This document shows positions 48,467 through 56,400 of a stretch of 64,000 nt of DNA, piece by piece (positions within the stretch are counted from its first letter, which is position 1; each line of letters starts with the position of its first letter). The translations under genes were made by a program, and so were the position numbers. The notes below the pieces were generated by a model. That model saw nothing but the letters and a program-made list of their open reading frames with translations, had not been told where the DNA came from and made no database searches. Origin of the DNA: Planctomonas sp. JC2975 (GTDB taxonomy: Bacteria; Actinomycetota; Actinomycetes; Actinomycetales; Microbacteriaceae); assembly GCF_012985205.1 (NCBI RefSeq), contig NZ_JABEKS010000003.1:186001-250000 (forward strand). The letters run 5' to 3'.

Positions 48467-50119
48467 TCACCGACCGTATGCGGTCAGGAAGCGGTCGCGG
48501 AAGGCATCCATGCGCCACAGCGGCGACGCGCTGGTCGGCTGGATCCCGGACGACCAGTGCCACGCGGCGATCGAGCGGAACACCGCGGGATCCTTCGCGA
48601 TGATGCTGATCGGCACCTCGTGGTTCGCGCCCTTGCCGCTGACGATCGTCGCCGGTTGGTGGTCACCGAGCTCGATGACCACCAGGTTGGGATCGTCGAC
48701 GTTCTTCAGGAACGAGTACATCGACTGCAGCGTGTACTGCACCGACTTGCCGTAGAACTGCTGCACGGTCTTCGGGTTCTGCCACACCGTTCCGGAGGAT
48801 TCGCTCTGCGCGGGCTGAGGAGCGTAGATCGACCCGTCGCCGATCTGCGACCACGGCACGATCTGCGGCAGAGGCGCCCACGGCGTGTGCGAGGAGACGA
48901 GGTCGATCTCCGCCATGACCGGCTTGTGAGGTCCGGTCAGCTCGTGATCGGCGAAGTACTTCCACGTGTACTGGTCGGGGATCCTGGCATATCCGAAGTG
49001 CGGACCCTCATAACCGACGTTCTGCGCGTTCAAGAGCGAGTCGTAGTGGTAGAACGACCTGCCGAACGACCACGGCTGCGCGTCGGACGGCACATCGCTC
49101 ACGGTGCGCCAGCCTGCCTTGCGGAACGCGTCACTCAGCGTGAAGCGGTCGCTGCGGACCACCTTGCTGTAGATCGGCTGCTCGTCCACCCACAGACCGG
49201 TCTGCAGCGTGGAGTGGGCGAGCCAGCTGAGCCCGCCGAACGTGGGCGAGGTGAGCCACGCACTCTGCGCGGTGTAGCCCTCCGCTTTCAGTTGCGCATT
49301 GCCGTTCCGCAGCACCGCATCCACCCCTGGTGAGAAGTCCGTGCCCTGAACGGCGACCTGACCATAGCTCTCGACGAAGGCGAACACGACGTCCTTGCCG
49401 CGCAAAGCGGTGAGCAGATCGGATGCGGGTTCCCCTGCGAACGAATCATCCGCGATCTGTCGAGGCAGTCCCGCCTGAGCCGACAACGTGGTGGACACCT
49501 GAGACACGGCCGTGCCGATCGCGTCGACGGATGCCGCGGCCGCCGTCGGCTGACCCGCGACGAGCTGGGATCCCACGAGTGCGGCGACGATCCAGGCCGC
49601 GGTCACGGCGCTGATCACGGCGGTGCCCACTTTCAGGTGCCGCCGGATACCGGCACTCACCCGCAGCGCCGCCCAGGTGAGCGCGACGACCAGAGCCACG
49701 GCGAGCACGATCGCCAGCACGACGAGGGCCGTCGTCGCGGTGGTCCCGATCGAGTCGGAGACGACGCCGAGGGCGTCGTCGAGCTGCTGCCAGTCGGCCG
49801 GATCGAAGTGGATGTCGAGCACCTGCTCGTATCCGTAGTCGATGCCCGCGAGCGCGATCGCGACCACGACGACAGTGCCGAAGACGGCGGCGAGCACGAT
49901 CCGCACCCACCGCCACGGCACCACCATCAGCACCAGCAGGATCACGAGCGACTCCACCGGCACGCGGACGAGCGCGAGCGCGGATCCGGTCGAGAGGATC
50001 CCCGGCACGAGGGGCGCAACGATGAGCAGTGCGATCGCGATGCCCAGCGCGATCGGGCTCCACCAGTGCCGGGCCGAGCGCGCGGTCCGTGCGGATGCCG
50101 TCGGTGCGGGGGCGGTCAT
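48467..50119 (-). CDS. LtaS-like membrane sulfatase/phosphoglycerol transferase
   Basis: 550 residues. Five membrane helices in the first 180 residues, then an extracytoplasmic sulfatase-fold domain. Metal-site candidates matching lipoteichoic-acid synthase: Glu in VFAFVESYGQ (about residue 252), Thr nucleophile in TSPTFGGLSW (about residue 297), and Asp-His in VVIELGDHQPA (about residues 497-507). It would move a phosphoglycerol or similar group on the outer membrane face. Last gene of the pterin-like/glycosyltransferase operon; ATG overlaps the preceding stop (ATGA). Confidence 0.88.
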   Translation of the reverse strand: MTAPAPTASARTARSARHWWSPIALGIAIALLIVAPLVPGILSTGSALALVRVPVESLVILLVLMVVPWRWVRIVLAAVFGTVVVVAIALAGIDYGYEQVLDIHFDPADWQQLDDALGVVSDSIGTTATTALVVLAIVLAVALVVALTWAALRVSAGIRRHLKVGTAVISAVTAAWIVAALVGSQLVAGQPTAAAASVDAIGTAVSQVSTTLSAQAGLPRQIADDSFAGEPASDLLTALRGKDVVFAFVESYGQVAVQGTDFSPGVDAVLRNGNAQLKAEGYTAQSAWLTSPTFGGLSWLAHSTLQTGLWVDEQPIYSKVVRSDRFTLSDAFRKAGWRTVSDVPSDAQPWSFGRSFYHYDSLLNAQNVGYEGPHFGYARIPDQYTWKYFADHELTGPHKPVMAEIDLVSSHTPWAPLPQIVPWSQIGDGSIYAPQPAQSESSGTVWQNPKTVQQFYGKSVQYTLQSMYSFLKNVDDPNLVVIELGDHQPATIVSGKGANHEVPISIIAKDPAVFRSIAAWHWSSGIQPTSASPLWRMDAFRDRFLTAYGR

Positions 50120-50805
50120 GACATCCGCTCCGACAGCGCGTACCGCAGCAGCACGAGGTCCCCGATCTGCCTGGTCTCCGCCAGGCGTGCTCGACGCGAC
50201 GGCGTGAACGGGAATCGCCCGGAGCCGACCGCGCGCGGCGCCCGTGCCTCTCCCACGAAGAAGGGCGCTATCACCAGCTGCAGCTCGTCGACGAGGTCAG
50301 CTGCGAGGAACTGCGTCAGCACGGTGCCGCCGCCCTCGACCATGAGGCGCCGCACATCGCGACAACTCCCGAGATCGTCCAGCAGCGCTTCCATGGTCAC
50401 GTGTGCACCGAGCCCGACGACCGTCGCCCGATCGCCGAGCTGCTCGCTCAGGCGACGCTCCGCCGAGCCGGTGCAGTACACGATCCGCTGCGAGTCCCCA
50501 GCCGTGAAGAACGCGGCCTCCGCCGACAGCTCCCCGCTCGAGGTGACCGTCACCTTCGCCGGAGAGCACGCGAGCCCTTCGGCGACCCTGCGCTCGCGCC
50601 GCGCATCATCGCGGACGAGGAGGCGCGGATCGTCGCGTCGCACCGTCGACGCTCCGACCATGATCGCGTCGCTCGCCGCCCGCACCTCGTCGACGCGGTC
50701 CAGGTCGGCGGCGTTCGACATCCTGAGCCGGCGCGGTCCCGTGCCGTCCAGATACCCGTCGATGGACATCGCGCAGCTCAGCGTGACGTATGGACGCCCT
50801 GTCAT
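50116..50805 (-). CDS. RibD C-terminal/dihydrofolate-reductase-fold reductase
   Basis: 229 residues. RibD-C fold: YVTLSCAMSIDGYLDGTGPR (residues 6-25), ASDAIMVGASTVRRDDPRLL (about 50-69), LMVEGGGTVLTQFLAADLVD (about 151-170) and LVIAPFFVGEA. This is the NADPH-dependent pyrimidine reductase fold of riboflavin synthesis, often reused for pterin-like or small-molecule reductions; the deaminase half of RibD is absent. ATGA overlaps on both sides, so it is part of the seven-gene operon. Confidence 0.92.
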   Translation of the reverse strand: MTGRPYVTLSCAMSIDGYLDGTGPRRLRMSNAADLDRVDEVRAASDAIMVGASTVRRDDPRLLVRDDARRERRVAEGLACSPAKVTVTSSGELSAEAAFFTAGDSQRIVYCTGSAERRLSEQLGDRATVVGLGAHVTMEALLDDLGSCRDVRRLMVEGGGTVLTQFLAADLVDELQLVIAPFFVGEARAPRAVGSGRFPFTPSRRARLAETRQIGDLVLLRYALSERMS

Positions 50806-51785
50806 GCTCTGCCTCCCTGCTCCAGCACTCGTGTTCCGTCGCCGTCGCCGTCGCCGTGGGCGGCGCGTCGCTGCGCACGGATGCCATCCCCTAGCAGCAC
50901 CACAGCACCCGGCACCACTGCCAGCATCGTCAGCACACCGAACGCCGCCGACACCACCACCCCTGCGCCCGCGCCCAGCCCGATCAGGGCGAACGCCGAT
51001 GCGCTGGCCGCCTCCCTGGGACCCCATCCGCCCACGTTGATGGGGATCGCGGATGCGCACAGCACCACGAGCGCGACCGCACCGAGACCAGCAGGCTCGG
51101 CGTCAACGCCCGCGGCGAGTCCGGCCACGATGAAGGTCGTCGCGTGCGCGGCGACGACCACAACGGAGGATGCCACGATGGCGACGAGGGTGACCGGACG
51201 CGTGATGAGGGGGCGGAGCATCCGCGCTTCCCGCGCGAGCGCCGCGCGGCCGCGTCGTGTCGCGGCCACCGCACCGATGGTGATGGCGACGAGCGCCGCC
51301 AGGGCAGCGCCCACCCACGACAGTGGTCCCAGTGCGGAGGAGAGCCCGAGCGGGACGAGCACGGCAAGCGTCACGCTGGTCTGCACGATCTGCCCTGCCA
51401 CGCGTTCGGCGACGACGGATCGCGCGGCGACGGCGATGCGCTGCTCGCGGCGTCCTTGCGCGTAGGCGCGGTGCACGTCTCCGACGACTCCACCCGGGAG
51501 CACGGTGTTCAGGAAGATGGCGCGGTAGTACGACGCGAAGGCGTCTCGCCAGGACAGTGGCATGCCGAGGCGCGAGGCGACGACCCGCCACCGCCATGCT
51601 GCGGCAGCGGTGGCGACGGCAGTGAGTCCGAAGGCGATCGCGATCGTCGTGGGCGAGACCGAGGCGATCCCGTTCAGGAACGGCCCGACACCGACCGCGA
51701 GCACCGTGGCCCCGATGATCAGGACGGCCGCGAGAACGGTGAGCGCCACCCGCGCTCTGCCCATCCTGTGCATCAGGCCGGCCAT
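50802..51785 (-). CDS. Lysylphosphatidylglycerol-synthase/flippase-like (UPF0104) membrane protein
   Basis: 327 residues, about eight membrane helices. The family signature loops RAIFLNTVLPGGVVGDVHRA (about residues 95-114) and the C-terminal ASAIPINVGGWGPREAASAS (about residues 250-269) match the AglD/MprF-N-like flippase fold. Probable lipid flippase or acceptor-binding subunit, not an aminoacyl transferase, since the cytosolic MprF domain is absent. Start ATG 51785 chosen (GAGG upstream), overlapping the previous gene; ATG 51773 is the alternative. Confidence 0.88.
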   Translation of the reverse strand: MAGLMHRMGRARVALTVLAAVLIIGATVLAVGVGPFLNGIASVSPTTIAIAFGLTAVATAAAAWRWRVVASRLGMPLSWRDAFASYYRAIFLNTVLPGGVVGDVHRAYAQGRREQRIAVAARSVVAERVAGQIVQTSVTLAVLVPLGLSSALGPLSWVGAALAALVAITIGAVAATRRGRAALAREARMLRPLITRPVTLVAIVASSVVVVAAHATTFIVAGLAAGVDAEPAGLGAVALVVLCASAIPINVGGWGPREAASASAFALIGLGAGAGVVVSAAFGVLTMLAVVPGAVVLLGDGIRAQRRAAHGDGDGDGTRVLEQGGRA

Positions 51786-52603
51786 GCGAGCACATCCTCG
51801 TGCGAGACGATCACCCTGAGGGATCCCGCGGCGACCGCCGCGCGGCGTCGACGGCGGTAGTCTTCCGCGACCCCGGTCAGGGCCGGACGCTGGTCGATCG
51901 CGGCGTCCACCCATCCGTCCAGCCACTGATGGATCAGCAGCGGGTCGTCCGGGCCGAGGCGCCACGGGGTTGGTGCCCTTCGGATGCGCCACCCGGACGC
52001 GGCGAAGAGCTCGGCCATCGCGGGAACCGCGTCGGGCCCCAGGAGCCGCAGGCCACCGGACACGCGCCGCTGATGGGCGTTGAACGCGTCGCGGATGACG
52101 GTGTCCACCGGATCAGCCGGGTACAGCCGCACCTCACCCGTCACGGTGAGGCTGAACAGCGCAGGGGCTCCCGCCGTGACGCACGCCGCCACGATCCGCT
52201 CGCCTTCGGACCAGGTGACGACATCGAGCACGGCGGATGCCGTCACCGCTGACGCGCCCTCGAGTTCCCACGGCGTCAGCTGGGCGAGCTCCTCGACGCT
52301 GAGCTCGGCCTCGACCGGTCGGCCGGCATCGTCGGCGACCGACCGGAGCTCGACGTGGGAGAGGATGCCTGCGTCGCCGTCGTGCAGCACCCACCGCTGC
52401 GGACCCGGCAGTCGCGGCGCGAGCCACCTGGTCATCGCCCCGGATCCGGAGCCGAGATCGTGGATCGTGAGGCCATCGTCGATCGTCGATCCGGCAGCGA
52501 GCAGCCGTGCCAACTCTCCCGCGAGCTCCGGTGAACGTGCTGCATCGTCCGCTGCGGCACGGAGTGCCAGCCACTGCGGCGAGACGACCGAGATCGAGGT
52601 CAT
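51773..52603 (-). CDS. Class I SAM-dependent methyltransferase
   Basis: 276 residues. SAM-binding motif I as LTIHDLGSGSGAMTRWLAPR (about residues 44-63), second strand acidic region RWVLHDGDAGILSHVE (about 67-82), and a motif IV-like ASAVLDVVTWSE (about residues 120-131). Cytosolic. The stop overlaps the flippase-like gene and the start overlaps the glycosyltransferase stop (ATGA). It probably methylates an intermediate made by the operon; the acceptor is unknown. Confidence 0.88.
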   Translation of the reverse strand: MTSISVVSPQWLALRAAADDAARSPELAGELARLLAAGSTIDDGLTIHDLGSGSGAMTRWLAPRLPGPQRWVLHDGDAGILSHVELRSVADDAGRPVEAELSVEELAQLTPWELEGASAVTASAVLDVVTWSEGERIVAACVTAGAPALFSLTVTGEVRLYPADPVDTVIRDAFNAHQRRVSGGLRLLGPDAVPAMAELFAASGWRIRRAPTPWRLGPDDPLLIHQWLDGWVDAAIDQRPALTGVAEDYRRRRRAAVAAGSLRVIVSHEDVLAWPA

Positions 52604-53670
52604 GCCGACACCAGCGCTTCCTCGACCATGCGAGCCGTGTCCTGCCATCCCGGCAGCAGAGTGCGGGCATGCCTGGCTTCCGTGCGGAGTCGGTCACGGA
52701 GTCCCGGATCCGAGAGCCATGCGTCCAGGGCATCCGCCAGCGCCGCTGCGTCGTCGGGGAGCACGAGCATCGCCCCGCCCCCTCTGTTGCCGATCGCACG
52801 GGTCCGGCCCATGCCGAGCGTGTCCGGAATACCGCCGACCGCGGCGGCCATCACGGGGATCCCGTGCGCCTGCGCCTCGGCGAGCGCCATCCCCGAGCTC
52901 TCGAGTCGGGACGGCGCGACGAGCAGCGCCGTTCGACGGTAGACCGCATCGAGCTCGCCAGGTGCGAGCGTGCCGGGCATCCACACGCGTCCGCCGAACT
53001 CGGCAGCGCTCTCGGCGATGCGGGATGCGAACTCCGGAAACACGGTCATCGAACCGATCAGCGTGCAGGTCCAGCCGGGCTCCGACACGCGGGCGAGCGC
53101 GTCGAGCAGGAGGTCCTGACCCTTGTGCGGCGCGATGACGCCCACGCAGAGGAGTTCGCCACCGGGCTCCGCGGCGGTGGCGGGTGGACTGCGGTGCGCG
53201 CCGGGGACCGCGACCGTGATGCACTGGCGATCCGCGAGTCCGCGTTCCACGAGTTGGTCGGCCGTCCACCGGCTCGTCGTCACCACCCGTCGAGCGCCGG
53301 CCAGTGACCGGCGCTCGGCGTCTGCTGTCGCGTCCGATGCATCCGGGAACGCCGCCGCGACCATGTGCGCGAGGACGACGACGCGGATGCGCGTGCTCGC
53401 AGCCTCGAGTTCGGCCGCCGCCCAGTCCCCCACCAGTCCGTCCACGAGCGCGAGACCTCCGTCAGGCACGGTGTCCACGGCAGTCGGCGCCGAGGATCCC
53501 TCCGCGTGCGGTTCGGCAGCCCCCGGATCCGCGACCCGGACCACGTTCACGCTCCAGCCCCGCTCGCGCAGCCCCGTTCGGATCTCCCTGTCGTACACAT
53601 TGCCGCCGCTGACCCGCGTCGGATCGTCGATCCCGTCCGGCACGAGGAACCACACGATCCGCCCGGGCAT
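52600..53670 (-). CDS. GT4-family glycosyltransferase
   Basis: 356 residues, GT-B fold. N-terminal domain with DGIDDPTRVSGGNVYDREIR (about residues 12-31), C-terminal sugar-nucleotide domain with LLCVGVIAPHKGQDLLLDAL (about residues 172-191), and the donor-binding ELDAVYRRTALLVAPSRLES SG region (about residues 238-260, E-x7-E pattern). Retaining glycosyltransferase acting on a lipid or small-molecule acceptor. ATGA with the methyltransferase downstream; a 78-bp gap separates it from the PTPS-like gene. Confidence 0.93.
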   Translation of the reverse strand: MPGRIVWFLVPDGIDDPTRVSGGNVYDREIRTGLRERGWSVNVVRVADPGAAEPHAEGSSAPTAVDTVPDGGLALVDGLVGDWAAAELEAASTRIRVVVLAHMVAAAFPDASDATADAERRSLAGARRVVTTSRWTADQLVERGLADRQCITVAVPGAHRSPPATAAEPGGELLCVGVIAPHKGQDLLLDALARVSEPGWTCTLIGSMTVFPEFASRIAESAAEFGGRVWMPGTLAPGELDAVYRRTALLVAPSRLESSGMALAEAQAHGIPVMAAAVGGIPDTLGMGRTRAIGNRGGGAMLVLPDDAAALADALDAWLSDPGLRDRLRTEARHARTLLPGWQDTARMVEEALVSA

Positions 53671-53748
53671 CAGAAGGCTCCGGTCGTCGCCGTCGCGGTG
53701 ATTCGCGTCACGTCCGTGCGTGTCCCGCCCATCAGCGCATCTCTTCCA

Positions 53749-54144
53749 TCACAGCGCCACCTCGTACGACGCCCATGCGACATGCGATTCGTGCAGGGTG
53801 ACGACGATCCCGCTGAGCCGTGCAGACCCGAGCGCACCGTCCCGAGCCCGAGATGCGAGTCGATCGCCGATGACCTGGCAGAGGCGCTCCGTGGTGGTGT
53901 TCACGCCGAGCAGGTCCGGATCCTCGTCCAGGTTGCGGTACGAGTACGCGGCCACGATCTCGCGCAGTTCGGCGGTGGCGCGGCCGATGTCCACCACGAT
54001 GCCGTCTGCATTCAGATCGGATGCGCGGAACGTCGCGTCCACGACGAACGTCGCGCCGTGCAGATTCTGCGCGGGCCCGAACACCTCGCCCTTCAGGCTG
54101 TGCGCGATCATCAGGTGATCGCGCACCGTGACGCTGAAGCTCAT
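53749..54144 (-). CDS. Degenerate 6-pyruvoyl-tetrahydropterin synthase/QueD-like protein
   Basis: 131 residues, standard T-fold length. The N-terminal MIAHSL supplies one zinc-type His (about 14-15), but the canonical HGH pair reads LHGATF, so the second zinc His is Ala, and the catalytic Cys that normally precedes it is absent (FGPAQN). Later conserved features remain: [18 protein letters not shown] (about 45-62), [16 protein letters not shown] (about 81-96) and [15 protein letters not shown] (about 115-129), with the late Glu. Either the chemistry differs from known PTPS/QueD or the protein only binds a pterin. ATG overlaps the dehydrogenase stop. Confidence 0.82.
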
Positions 54145-55181
54145 TCCGCACTCCAATCGATGGTGTGGCACATCTCGTCGGCGGTGCCGGCGGCCAAGGA
54201 TGCGATCACCGACGGCAGCTCGCGCCATCCGGAGGCGCCGCCGAGGAGCGCGTCGAACGCCGGATCCTCCAGAAGTCGCAGTGCCAGGGCGAGGCGCTCG
54301 CGCGTCGTCCTGCGACCCCTCCTGCTCGGCGCGACGGCGCCCACCTGGCTGGACCGGATCGTCAGCCGACGCGAGTGGAAGTCGGCGCCCAGCTCGAGTG
54401 GGACTTCGCCGCTGCCGTACCAGCTCGCGACGACCACTTCGCCGTCCGTCGGCGCGAGGCGGAGCGCGAGTCCCAGACCGGCAGCGGAGCCGCTCGCCTC
54501 GATCACGACATCCGCATCCGCATCCACATCCACATCCGGCGGAGCGTCGTGCGGTGCGGCGAACCGCGCACCGAGCGCCTGGGCGATCTCTGCTTTGGCC
54601 GCATCGATGTCGACGAGTGTGACCGCAAGTCCGGGGATGCCACGCAGCAGCGCCGCCACGGAGCATCCGATCATGCCGGCTCCGACCACGACGACGCGGT
54701 CGCCGATCAGCGGCCGGGCGTCCCAGATCACGTTGACCGCGGTCTCGACGGCACCGGCGAGCACGGCCCGCCTGGCAGGTACCGCGTCGGGCACGGGAAC
54801 GAGCGCATCGATGGACGCCACGAATCGCGACTGATGCGGATGCAGCGAGAACACCGTGCGTCCGCGCCACTGGGGCGGGCCGTCCTCGACGACTCCGACG
54901 TTGAGGTAGCCGTACTTGACGGGGAACGGGAAGTCGCCTTCCTGGAAGGGGGCGCGCATCCGCTCCTGCTCCGTCTGCGGCACGTCGCCGCGCGCGACGA
55001 TCATCTCCGTGCCCCGGCTCACGCCGGTCCACATGGTGCGGACGGACGCCTCACCCGCTCCGGCCTGCCGTTGCGGCTCATGACGCAACTCGGCCATGCC
55101 AGGGCCGGTGGTCCAGAGCGCGATCGCGTGATCCGCCTCTTGCGGATGAACCGCGGAGCCCTCGGGCAGCGTGTTCCTCAT
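54141..55181 (-). CDS. Zinc-type alcohol dehydrogenase-like (MDR) protein
   Basis: 346 residues of the medium-chain dehydrogenase fold. Substrate domain with [20 protein letters not shown] (about residues 48-67) and [16 protein letters not shown]; Rossmann domain with [20 protein letters not shown] (about residues 159-178; GAGMIG dinucleotide motif) and [19 protein letters not shown]. The cysteine cluster of the structural zinc is absent, as in bacteriochlorophyllide/threonine-type relatives. First gene of the operon. Start uncertain: ATG 55181 chosen; ATG 55190 and GTG 55199 also in frame, none with a good ribosome-binding site. Confidence 0.87.
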
Positions 55182-55217
55182 CACGACCATGATGAACACA
55201 CGAAAGGTCGCAGGGGA

Positions 55218-55988
55218 ATGGTTCAGGTCACGCCGTGGGGGTGGGCGCTCGGCGGTTTCGCCGCGCTCTTCGTCGTGGGACTCCTCATGCCGCTGTCGCT
55301 CACGGGGTGGGCTCTCGGCGTGGCCTACCTGATCGTGTCGTCGCTGCTGGTCTCGCTCGGGCTCGGGCGCCGGAGCGCGACCCGCTTCGGGCCGGCGAAC
55401 GTCGTGACGGCCACGCGGTCCATGCTGGTCGGAGTCGCGACCGCCATGGTCGTCGCGTCGTTCACGATGCCGCTTCCGACGGCGCTGTTCGTCACGATCG
55501 TCGCCGTCGCGCTCGCGCTCGACGCCGTCGACGGCTTCGTCGCGCGTCGCACAGGCACCACGAGCGAGCTCGGAGCCCGATTCGACATGGAGGTCGACGC
55601 GTTCCTGCTGCTGGTGCTGTGCGTCTACGACGCCCGATACGTCGGATGGTTGGTGCTCGCGATCGGCCTGATGCGCTACGCCTTCGTCGCGGTCGGATGG
55701 CTGCTGCCGTGGATGCGCGCGACCCTCCCGCCGCGCTACTGGCGCAAGGTGGTGACGGCCTTCTGCGGGATTGCACTCACGATCGTCGCCGCGCGCATCC
55801 TGCCGCCGCTCTTCGACGGCATCATCGCCGCAGCAGCACTCCTGCTGCTCATCGAGTCGTTCGGCAGGGATGTCGTGTGGCTGATCCGCGCGAACGTGTC
55901 AGCGCGCAGTGTCGATGAACCGCGGCGGGCGTTGCCTCGTGTCACGGGAAAGGGCCTCCGCACAGGGGGCGAGACAGAAAGCGAGTAA
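55218..55988 (+). CDS. CDP-alcohol phosphatidyltransferase family protein
   Basis: 256 residues, about six membrane helices. The CDP-alcohol phosphatidyltransferase signature is perfect: ALDAVDGFVARR (about residues 98-109) then GTTSELGARFDMEVD (D-x2-D-G-x2-A-R-x8-G-x3-D-x3-D, about residues 98-122). It joins a diacylglycerol or similar CDP-lipid to an alcohol. Divergent from the dehydrogenase gene with a 36-bp gap, so probably co-regulated with that operon; its product could be the lipid acceptor for the pathway. Confidence 0.95.
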   Translation: MVQVTPWGWALGGFAALFVVGLLMPLSLTGWALGVAYLIVSSLLVSLGLGRRSATRFGPANVVTATRSMLVGVATAMVVASFTMPLPTALFVTIVAVALALDAVDGFVARRTGTTSELGARFDMEVDAFLLLVLCVYDARYVGWLVLAIGLMRYAFVAVGWLLPWMRATLPPRYWRKVVTAFCGIALTIVAARILPPLFDGIIAAAALLLLIESFGRDVVWLIRANVSARSVDEPRRALPRVTGKGLRTGGETESE

Positions 55989-55992
55989 GCAC

Positions 55993-56400
55993 ATGGCCGG
56001 AACCAGCCAGCCGATGCGCTGGGTGATGCGCATCCTCAGCGCGATCATCCTCGTCATCGTGGGCGGCATACACCTCTTCCTCGTCTTCGACGGCGTCGGA
56101 GGTGTGCTGGGAGTGCTGTTCGTGCTCAACGCGATAGCCGCGTTCGTGCTGGCGATCACGATGCTCACCCTCCGCGGCAGGCTGCTGCAGTTGGCCACGG
56201 TGTTGAGCCTGCTGTTCCTCGTCGCAACGCTCGTCTCGCTCCTCCTCGCTCTCACGGTCGGCCTCTTCGGCATCCGCGAGGTGTGGACGTTCACGCTCGT
56301 GCCGCAGACCATCGTCATCGAGTCGATCGGGATCATCGTGCTCGCCATCGCGACGGGCGTCATGTTCCGCAGTGCCCCGGCGGTGGCGGCGTCGCGGTGA
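55993..56400 (+). CDS. Hypothetical four-helix membrane protein
   Basis: 135 residues, four membrane helices (about residues 8-28, 33-55, 60-80 and 95-125). It starts 4 nt after the CDP-alcohol phosphatidyltransferase gene and is likely co-transcribed. No family motif. May be an accessory of that enzyme. Tail ends ...SAPAVAASR. Confidence 0.82.
   Translation: MAGTSQPMRWVMRILSAIILVIVGGIHLFLVFDGVGGVLGVLFVLNAIAAFVLAITMLTLRGRLLQLATVLSLLFLVATLVSLLLALTVGLFGIREVWTFTLVPQTIVIESIGIIVLAIATGVMFRSAPAVAASR

Follow-up and report, generated by a model that had tools for sequence, protein, structure and literature searches.

Several described systems resemble parts of an eight-gene block in the actinobacterium Planctomonas sp. 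JC2975, which we analyzed within a stretch of 64,000 nucleotides (contig NZ_JABEKS010000003.1, positions 186,001 to 250,000; hereafter the window). The Streptomyces coelicolor protein SCO6650 (PDB 3d7j) is the orthologue of one protein of the block, but it is described as the structure of a single protein, is labelled "uncharacterized" in the PDB, and reportedly contains no zinc and has no 6-pyruvoyl tetrahydropterin synthase (PTPS) activity. PTPS and QueD share the T-fold and the pterin pocket with this protein; three histidines hold their zinc, a Cys and an Asp-His pair are catalytic, and Thr-Thr and Glu bind the pterin, whereas the Cys, the Asp-His pair and one zinc His are replaced here. 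The early part of the archaeal and fungal riboflavin route (GTP cyclohydrolase, the formamide hydrolase ArfB or BrbF, and the reductase Rib7/ArfC) comprises the same three activities that are suggested by the GTP cyclohydrolase II (GCHII), creatininase-family and RibD_C genes of related loci, which, unlike in that route, are followed by a dehydrogenase, the T-fold protein, a methyltransferase, a GT4 glycosyltransferase and membrane genes. Lipoteichoic acid assembly relies on PgsA, a glycolipid synthase, the flippase LtaA and LtaS, and the block holds a parallel set of a CDP-alcohol transferase, a glycosyltransferase, a flippase-like protein and an LtaS fold. However, the LtaS-like protein is only 11–14% identical to LtaS, LtaP and GacH and lacks a Pfam match, the ring-building enzymes are encoded in the same operon, and the system occurs in Proteobacteria too. 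Finally, the synthesis of osmoregulated periplasmic glucans (MdoH/OpgH, MdoG, OpgB) has in common with loci related to the block that MdoH is encoded near the dehydrogenase gene in part of them.

The block consists of seven genes on the minus strand (48,467 to 55,199) and a divergent gene on the plus strand (55,218 to 55,988). We tentatively propose, with our confidence close to evenly divided, that its eight genes form one pathway of two modules, which would place a GTP-derived heterocycle on an envelope lipid or glycan; as a best guess, the product would be a ribitylamino-pyrimidine or pterin bearing methyl and sugar groups. The proposal starts from observed gene content, homology, the intact motifs of the GT4, CDP-alcohol transferase and LtaS-like enzymes, co-inheritance and a split of the modules in one lineage. 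We are not aware of any system in which a GTP-derived ring is coupled to an LtaS-type membrane module; taken singly, the enzymes all fall into known superfamilies. Already in print are the structure of SCO6650 (PDB) and the listing of SCO6655 in a metabolic model. A preliminary description of this DNA knew of no characterized pathway with this composition, and none turned up in the titles and opening abstract lines of the papers listed by searches of the open-access (Creative Commons-licensed PubMed Central) literature; other papers may describe the cluster. The same description held the seven genes to be nearly all joined by ATGA overlaps. The block is real, with overlaps at five of six junctions; four of these read ATGA (dehydrogenase/T-fold, GT4/methyltransferase, flippase/RibD_C and RibD_C/LtaS-like), the methyltransferase/flippase junction being TGATG and the T-fold and GT4 genes standing 78 bases apart as the sole spaced pair.

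There is almost no doubt that the parts of the block are inherited together. A scan of named genomes with the window's MDR-family (BchC/HpnZ-like) dehydrogenase (MDR; 54,141 to 55,199, minus strand, first gene of the operon; PF00107, 4.4e-9) yielded 74 loci across Actinomycetota and Proteobacteria, including the genera Microbacterium, Kineosporia, Paeniglutamicibacter, Serinicoccus, Marinobacter, Paracoccus, Bosea, Stappia, Roseibium and Aurantimonas. MDR is thus present by construction. The T-fold gene was found in 74/74 loci (73 within 1 kb of MDR, one at 1.7 kb), the methyltransferase gene in 73/74 (profiles built from the loci) and the GT4 gene in 63/74 stretches, Paracoccus loci being among the eleven without it. 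MDR, T-fold protein and methyltransferase hence represent the near-invariant core, and the gene order of the block is repeated in distant bacteria. Presence here means a profile match within the stretch (up to 10 kb on each side), so that absence from a stretch does not equal absence from the genome, and scripted gene calls took the longest open reading frames, whereby spurious frames occurred. Counts out of 94 loci combine the 74 named loci with 20 regions hand-chosen for spread from 43 Actinomycetes genomes, some of them cut by contig ends. As the metagenome-assembled genome of locus L055 (labelled Marinimicrobia) is possibly misbinned, no third phylum was counted. Alignments used subsets of loci plus the window: A1, 27/74 named loci; A2, 17/18 LtaS loci (L039 omitted); A3, 24/73; A4 and A5, 17 loci each (L172 omitted); A6, 11 loci, all actinobacterial; and A7, 17.

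As an independent test, 296 Actinomycetes genomes, the window's own among them, were searched, and matches were obtained for the T-fold protein in 43, MDR in 44, the CDP-alcohol transferase in 44 and the LtaS-like protein in 32 genomes. MDR accompanied the T-fold protein in 43/43 genomes and occurred without it in one (p 3.6e-51), the CDP-alcohol transferase in 41/43 and without it in three (p 3.4e-44), and the LtaS-like protein in 30/43 and without it in two (p 1.5e-28), all p values being uncorrected for kinship. In addition, the locus distances of seven families agreed with Mantel r values of 0.81–0.93, and 0/300 permutations were as high for each of the 21 pairs, which is what joint inheritance would give. 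The same genes and order in distant bacteria, together with the genome-wide co-occurrence, argue for more than chance. Altogether, the genome-neighbourhood survey that the preliminary description had called for found the genes conserved as a unit.

Twenty plasmid or chromid records match the Paracoccus T-fold protein, among them records of Methylosinus, Rhizobium, Palleronia and Streptomyces, and in all four records examined MDR and the T-fold gene are adjacent and accompanied by other cluster genes. Apart from these records, locus L204 unites genes for the LtaS-like protein, CDP-alcohol transferase, MDR, T-fold protein, GT4, methyltransferase, flippase, RibD_C, creatininase and GCHII within about 10 kb. 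On the plasmid of Streptomyces fungicidicus, the annotated order is CDP-alcohol transferase, MDR, T-fold protein, GT4, methyltransferase, creatininase and ribA, and Methylosinus OB3b carries mdoH, MDR, the T-fold gene, GT4, a hypothetical protein in the methyltransferase position and RibD. Decay or sequencing error may explain the state of two genomes: the MDR orthologue of G013 lies in two pieces, and in Marinobacter salarius (G040, L080) the LtaS-like and CDP-alcohol transferase genes are each spread over two frames.

The membrane part of the block comprises four genes. The CDP-alcohol phosphatidyltransferase (55,218 to 55,988), the divergent plus-strand gene recognized from the outset, matches PF01066 (1.8e-11; 45.1 against a cut-off of 22), keeps the motif DxxDGxxARx8GxxxDxxxD invariant in 18/18 sequences and shows weak ties to several subfamilies. 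The GT4 glycosyltransferase (52,600 to 53,670, minus; PF00534, 3e-23) has an E-x7-E motif that is invariant in 18 aligned sequences, and its nearest solved chains are 6kih (Tll1590), followed by 3c4q/7qsg (inositol-phosphate glycosyltransferase) and 3oka (PimB-type). An LPG_synthase_TM or flippase-like integral membrane protein is encoded at 50,802 to 51,773 (minus; PF03706, 1.6e-32; TIGR00374, 54.9 against a cut-off of 43.2). The last operon gene (48,467 to 50,119, minus) encodes an LtaS-like extracytoplasmic phosphotransferase with N-terminal helices, for which no Pfam (including the sulfatase domain) or NCBIfam match was obtained at 0.01 and the best profile match was LtaP (E 0.73). Its label comes from the fold instead: an AF2 model (pLDDT 84) matched LtaP (Z 21.9), LtaS (21.5) and GacH (21.1) over 254–277 residues, about two Z units above phosphoethanolamine transferases, and the alkaline-phosphatase-superfamily fold follows the N-terminal helices, with the match beginning near residue 216. 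Glu, Thr, Asp and His form the metal site of LtaS, and the equivalent positions hold Glu in 18/18, Thr in 17/18 (one Ile) and, where the sequences have letters, Asp and His in 17/17 each. Consequently, the earlier LtaS-like label is borne out by structure and not by sequence.

The organization in Paracoccus sets these genes apart from the core. Its core stretch lacks the CDP-alcohol transferase, LtaS-like, flippase and GT4 genes; the first two were located elsewhere by whole-genome search, and in four Paracoccus genomes the four genes occur in a second locus, as a complete operon in two and as contig-end pieces in the other two. This split defines a membrane module, module B. In another reading, the core would make a GTP-derived natural product or cofactor glycoside (with pterin or pyrimidine as the glycosylated unit) that is soluble or secreted, and the membrane genes would serve a separate, co-travelling envelope function. 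In favor of this, the core is near-universal while the CDP-alcohol transferase and LtaS-like protein are not, genomes G094 and G279 encode both of the latter and G253 the transferase alone without a T-fold match, and the GT4 matches include a tetrahydrobiopterin glucosyltransferase, albeit one that ranks well below the best. Yet the transferase co-occurs with the T-fold protein in 41/43 genomes, and the Paracoccus GT4, which elsewhere belongs to the core operon, sits among the membrane genes, so that we consider a soluble product rather unlikely. In lineages with module B, export or envelope attachment of the product is instead probable.

The nature of the acceptor is a different matter. Among the 74 named loci, 19 encode MdoH within 2.3 kb of MDR. 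In 12 Marinobacter loci the distance is about 9 kb, and an MdoG-type gene stands ahead of the MdoH gene (checked with Pfam in one of them). The eight sampled genomes with MdoH near the core belong to Bosea (two), Stappia (two), Aurantimonas, Jiella, Acuticoccus and one Burkholderiales metagenome-assembled genome. A genome-wide search at E 1e-25 found no CDP-alcohol transferase in 8/8 of them, and the LtaS-like protein is absent in 7/8, the eighth having two partial pieces; in the remaining twelve genomes of the sample, the transferase was found in eleven and the LtaS-like protein in ten. A glycerophospholipid therefore cannot be the product everywhere. The MdoH lineages argue for an acceptor that differs between lineages, and attachment to a lipid or the envelope may be one of several fates. 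Of the exported glycolipid advanced in the preliminary description, the unity of the pathway stands and a ring is probable, while the lipid is not settled, as MdoH genomes lack the CDP-alcohol transferase (8/8) and mostly the LtaS-like protein (7/8), and 13/43 Actinomycetes genomes with the cluster have no LtaS-like protein. Alternatively, rather than being a lipid headgroup, the product could decorate a glucan of the periplasm or surface (osmoregulated periplasmic type); MdoH would supply the backbone in some lineages, and Actinomycetota would use a different glycan. The proximity of MdoH described above, the mdoH gene beside the Methylosinus OB3b cluster and an apparent operon of MdoH, MdoG-family and LtaS-like genes in Marinobacter confluentis (L197, 4,208 to 9,539) speak for a glucan. 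However, the LtaS-like and MdoH-adjacent states scarcely overlap, the operon was found in just one of four Marinobacter genomes, and to our knowledge Actinomycetota do not produce glucans of the osmoregulated periplasmic type, so that we regard this alternative as unlikely. No MdoH match was obtained in the actinobacterial loci examined; the window's genome was not searched for MdoH. Another Marinobacter (L196) has its LtaS-like gene between similar flanking genes, with no room for the two glucan genes.

The most informative protein for the chemistry of the core is the T-fold protein (53,749 to 54,144, minus; PF01242, 8e-24). A profile search of the PDB found SCO6650 at E 3e-62, and an AF2 model (pLDDT 97) superimposes on 3d7j with Z 23.3 and a root-mean-square deviation of 0.6 Å over 131 residues at 67% identity, followed by PTPS and QueD structures at Z of about 15. 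The window protein is an orthologue of SCO6650, and the members at L157–L159 are 89–93% identical to the latter. Across 28 aligned sequences, the HGH zinc motif reads HGA in 27 and HGV in one, with the other two zinc histidines kept in 28/28; the position of the catalytic Cys is Ala in 28/28, and of the Asp-His pair the His is absent in all and the Asp retained in one. In contrast, the Thr-Thr-Glu and anchor Glu of the pterin pocket (T84, T85, E86 and E119) are invariant in 28/28. The protein is thus expected to accommodate a ring of the pterin or pyrimidine kind, but it is unable to catalyze the PTPS reaction in its known form and cannot be an ordinary PTPS or QueD. Ordinary queuosine or biopterin synthesis was ruled out by these residues and by the QueD score (41.9 bits against a cut-off of 89.25). 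Four annotated records attach a queuosine term to the protein, which the residues do not support, and elsewhere it is annotated as 6-carboxytetrahydropterin synthase.

The RibD_C reductase (50,116 to 50,805, minus; PF01872, 4e-42) points to the same chemistry. A profile of 12 actinobacterial sequences matched 5xux (named "Conserved protein" in the PDB and presumably an archaeal Rib7) at E 2e-46 and 6p8c at 4e-36, compared with 3e-17 for the bacterial RibD 2b3z. The actinobacterial proteins are therefore closest to reductases of the Rib7 type, which is their predicted function; these act on 2,5-diamino-6-ribosylamino-4(3H)-pyrimidinone 5'-phosphate (DARP). The window protein scores 134.8 bits against the NCBIfam equivalog TIGR01508, below its cut-off of 186.45.

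Relatives also carry genes that could supply DARP. GCHII (PF00925) is encoded beside the core in 43/94 stretches, in two forms and in both Actinomycetota and Proteobacteria, and is missing from the window cluster. A creatininase-family protein (PF02633) is encoded beside the core with a strong match in 9/94 stretches and a weak match in four more. The GCHII position that we take to be Tyr105 of E. coli holds Tyr in 33/43 loci, the ten others being L091 and all nine loci in which the creatininase match is strong, and the GCHII of L204, which has a creatininase, carries Met. The Tyr is hence replaced in 10/10 GCHII proteins beside a strong creatininase match and in 1/34 of the others, and the creatininase-family protein accompanies 10/11 of the Tyr-replaced enzymes. 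An exchange of Tyr for Met is said to leave SCO6655 with a formylated intermediate. On these grounds the non-Tyr GCHII probably stops at the formylated intermediate, and the creatininase-family protein is likely a deformylase. As shown in PMC9478397, a creatininase-annotated protein of S. meliloti deformylates this GCHII intermediate. Three observations agree here: GCHII is clustered, replacement of the Tyr goes with creatininase, and a Rib7-like reductase occurs with a pterin-pocket protein. They make a GTP-derived (ribitylamino)pyrimidine front end likely, and the pterin/riboflavin-type reading of the preliminary description gains weight from the genes that relatives add. The idea that RibD_C and creatininase substitute for each other, considered for nine Actinomycetes loci, was dropped, since L204 has both and four further loci combine RibD_C with a weaker creatininase match. 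A plain riboflavin duplicate is unlikely, as dehydrogenase, T-fold protein, methyltransferase and GT4 genes co-travel; neither lumazine nor riboflavin synthase was seen in four annotated regions, in which no search was aimed at either. That the pterin and riboflavin folds were recruited for unrelated chemistry, such as that of a nucleotide sugar or lipid alcohol, with GTP not being the precursor, would fit the lost PTPS residues, the window cluster without GCHII, the loose creatininase-family match and the fact that a fold does not fix the substrate, but is quite improbable in view of GCHII clustering in two forms and two phyla and the invariant pterin-pocket residues.

The remaining core enzymes are a dehydrogenase and a methyltransferase. 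The former is the gene at 54,141, which the preliminary description had listed by coordinate without a name; all other families on its list were found as well. In NCBIfam it matches HpnZ (7e-13) and BchC (2e-7), both far under their cut-offs, no solved relative was found at 1e-12, and translation may actually begin at one of the ATGs that closely follow the GTG. The latter (51,773 to 52,603, minus) is a divergent class I S-adenosylmethionine (SAM)-dependent methyltransferase with a PF13649 match of 0.0015, below the Pfam cut-off, SAM methyltransferase profile matches of about 2e-4 and 17 invariant columns in 25 sequences.

From these parts we infer the reactions, their order, the product and its destination as follows. 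Module A, in the cytoplasm, would start from DARP, the GCHII product, supplied by the sole GCHII found in the window's genome and by the cluster-borne GCHII in many relatives, where the creatininase-family deformylase would complete the step at which GCHII probably halts. The Rib7-like RibD_C enzyme would reduce the ribose of DARP to a ribityl chain, and T-fold protein, dehydrogenase and methyltransferase would then remodel either the ring or the side chain, yielding a pterin- or pyrimidine-like unit. In module B, at the membrane, the GT4 enzyme would add a sugar, and the CDP-alcohol transferase would either link a lipid with an alcohol or phospho-alcohol or make a donor phospholipid. The flippase-like protein would then carry the conjugate outward, and the LtaS-like enzyme would transfer a phospho-group to an acceptor outside. 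A more specific version, which we think distinctly unlikely, is a teichoic-acid-like conjugate whose polyol would be the ribityl chain of the methylated, glycosylated ring, the CDP-alcohol transferase making a phosphatidyl-ribityl-heterocycle that the LtaS-like enzyme would hand on to a glycan outside the cell; a cytochrome b561-type gene beside the cluster (14/94 loci) would fit a redox role of such a product.

Several observations weigh against the proposed two-module pathway, beginning with the MdoH genomes that lack the CDP-alcohol transferase (8/8) and the LtaS-like protein (7/8) and the loss of the catalytic residues of PTPS in the T-fold protein. The flippase was not found in 41/94 stretches, RibD_C not in 32/94 and GCHII not in 51/94, and a search of the window's genome for a second GCHII found only one. 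The spread is patchy: 8/40 near relatives have an MDR of at least 47% identity, and the 296-genome search found no T-fold protein in 13 other genomes of the same family. The substrates of GT4, MDR and methyltransferase cannot be read from sequence. The proteobacterial type of RibD_C does not clearly resemble Rib7: that of L096 matches bacterial RibD (1.1e-31) and TIGR01508 (1.3e-31) equally, with a ribD_Cterm match of 1.4e-38. Creatininase-family proteins score best against MftE and creatininase models, below the NCBIfam cut-offs, and weakly against ArfB (for L157, MftE 133.7 against 172 and ArfB 36.6 against 180 bits), with the match of L157 to Pfam Creatininase lying well over the cut-off. 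Finally, the 44 GCHII proteins are related sequences, so that the Tyr/creatininase link reflects few independent events. The uncertain proteobacterial RibD_C and the loose creatininase match lower our confidence in both the front end and the pathway as a whole.

The two-module pathway would tie the orphan structure of SCO6650, the cluster GCHII, the creatininase-family protein and the LtaS-like transferase into one co-inherited system, which occurs in roughly a seventh of the Actinomycetes genomes sampled (43/296) and in many Proteobacteria. If true, an envelope component not described so far would derive from GTP, and its orphan proteins would become testable together; if the teichoic-acid-like version held, two large bacterial groups would display a redox- or light-active relative of flavins or pterins on their surface. 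In the numbering of S. coelicolor, the gene order of S. fungicidicus would span SCO6650 to SCO6655, from which we infer that SCO6652 is the methyltransferase. PMC2853524 lists SCO6655 as GTP cyclohydrolase II. According to Table 3 of PMC3610822, SCO6652 increases by 4.3 and 4.1 (log2) in what that paper terms the aerial and spores stages.

Four genes flanking the block were compared with the 74 related loci; the isomerase-like TIM barrel gave one weak match and the MFS transporter and DinB-like polymerase none. A gene for a small protein downstream of the CDP-alcohol transferase (55,909 to 56,400, plus strand) has matches in ten Microbacterium loci and in no other of the 74.

Additional genes accompany the cluster in some lineages. 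Twelve Rhodobacterales loci (L067, L073, L074, L075, L083, L086, L094, L095, L098, L099, L104 and L209) have an inositol-monophosphatase-family gene nearby and, except for L098, an FkbM-type methyltransferase gene, for which phosphatase and second methylation steps are possible. An inositol-monophosphatase-like match at L155 (129 bits) was unconfirmed by Pfam and set aside. The 14 loci with a cytochrome b561-type gene near the methyltransferase gene are L055, L065, L069, L070, L072, L076, L079, L083, L088, L091, L092, L097, L100 and L101 (PF01292 tested for the L076 member), and this neighbour may hint at a redox role. In Thiodictyon, a cytochrome b gene lies between the methyltransferase and RibD genes.

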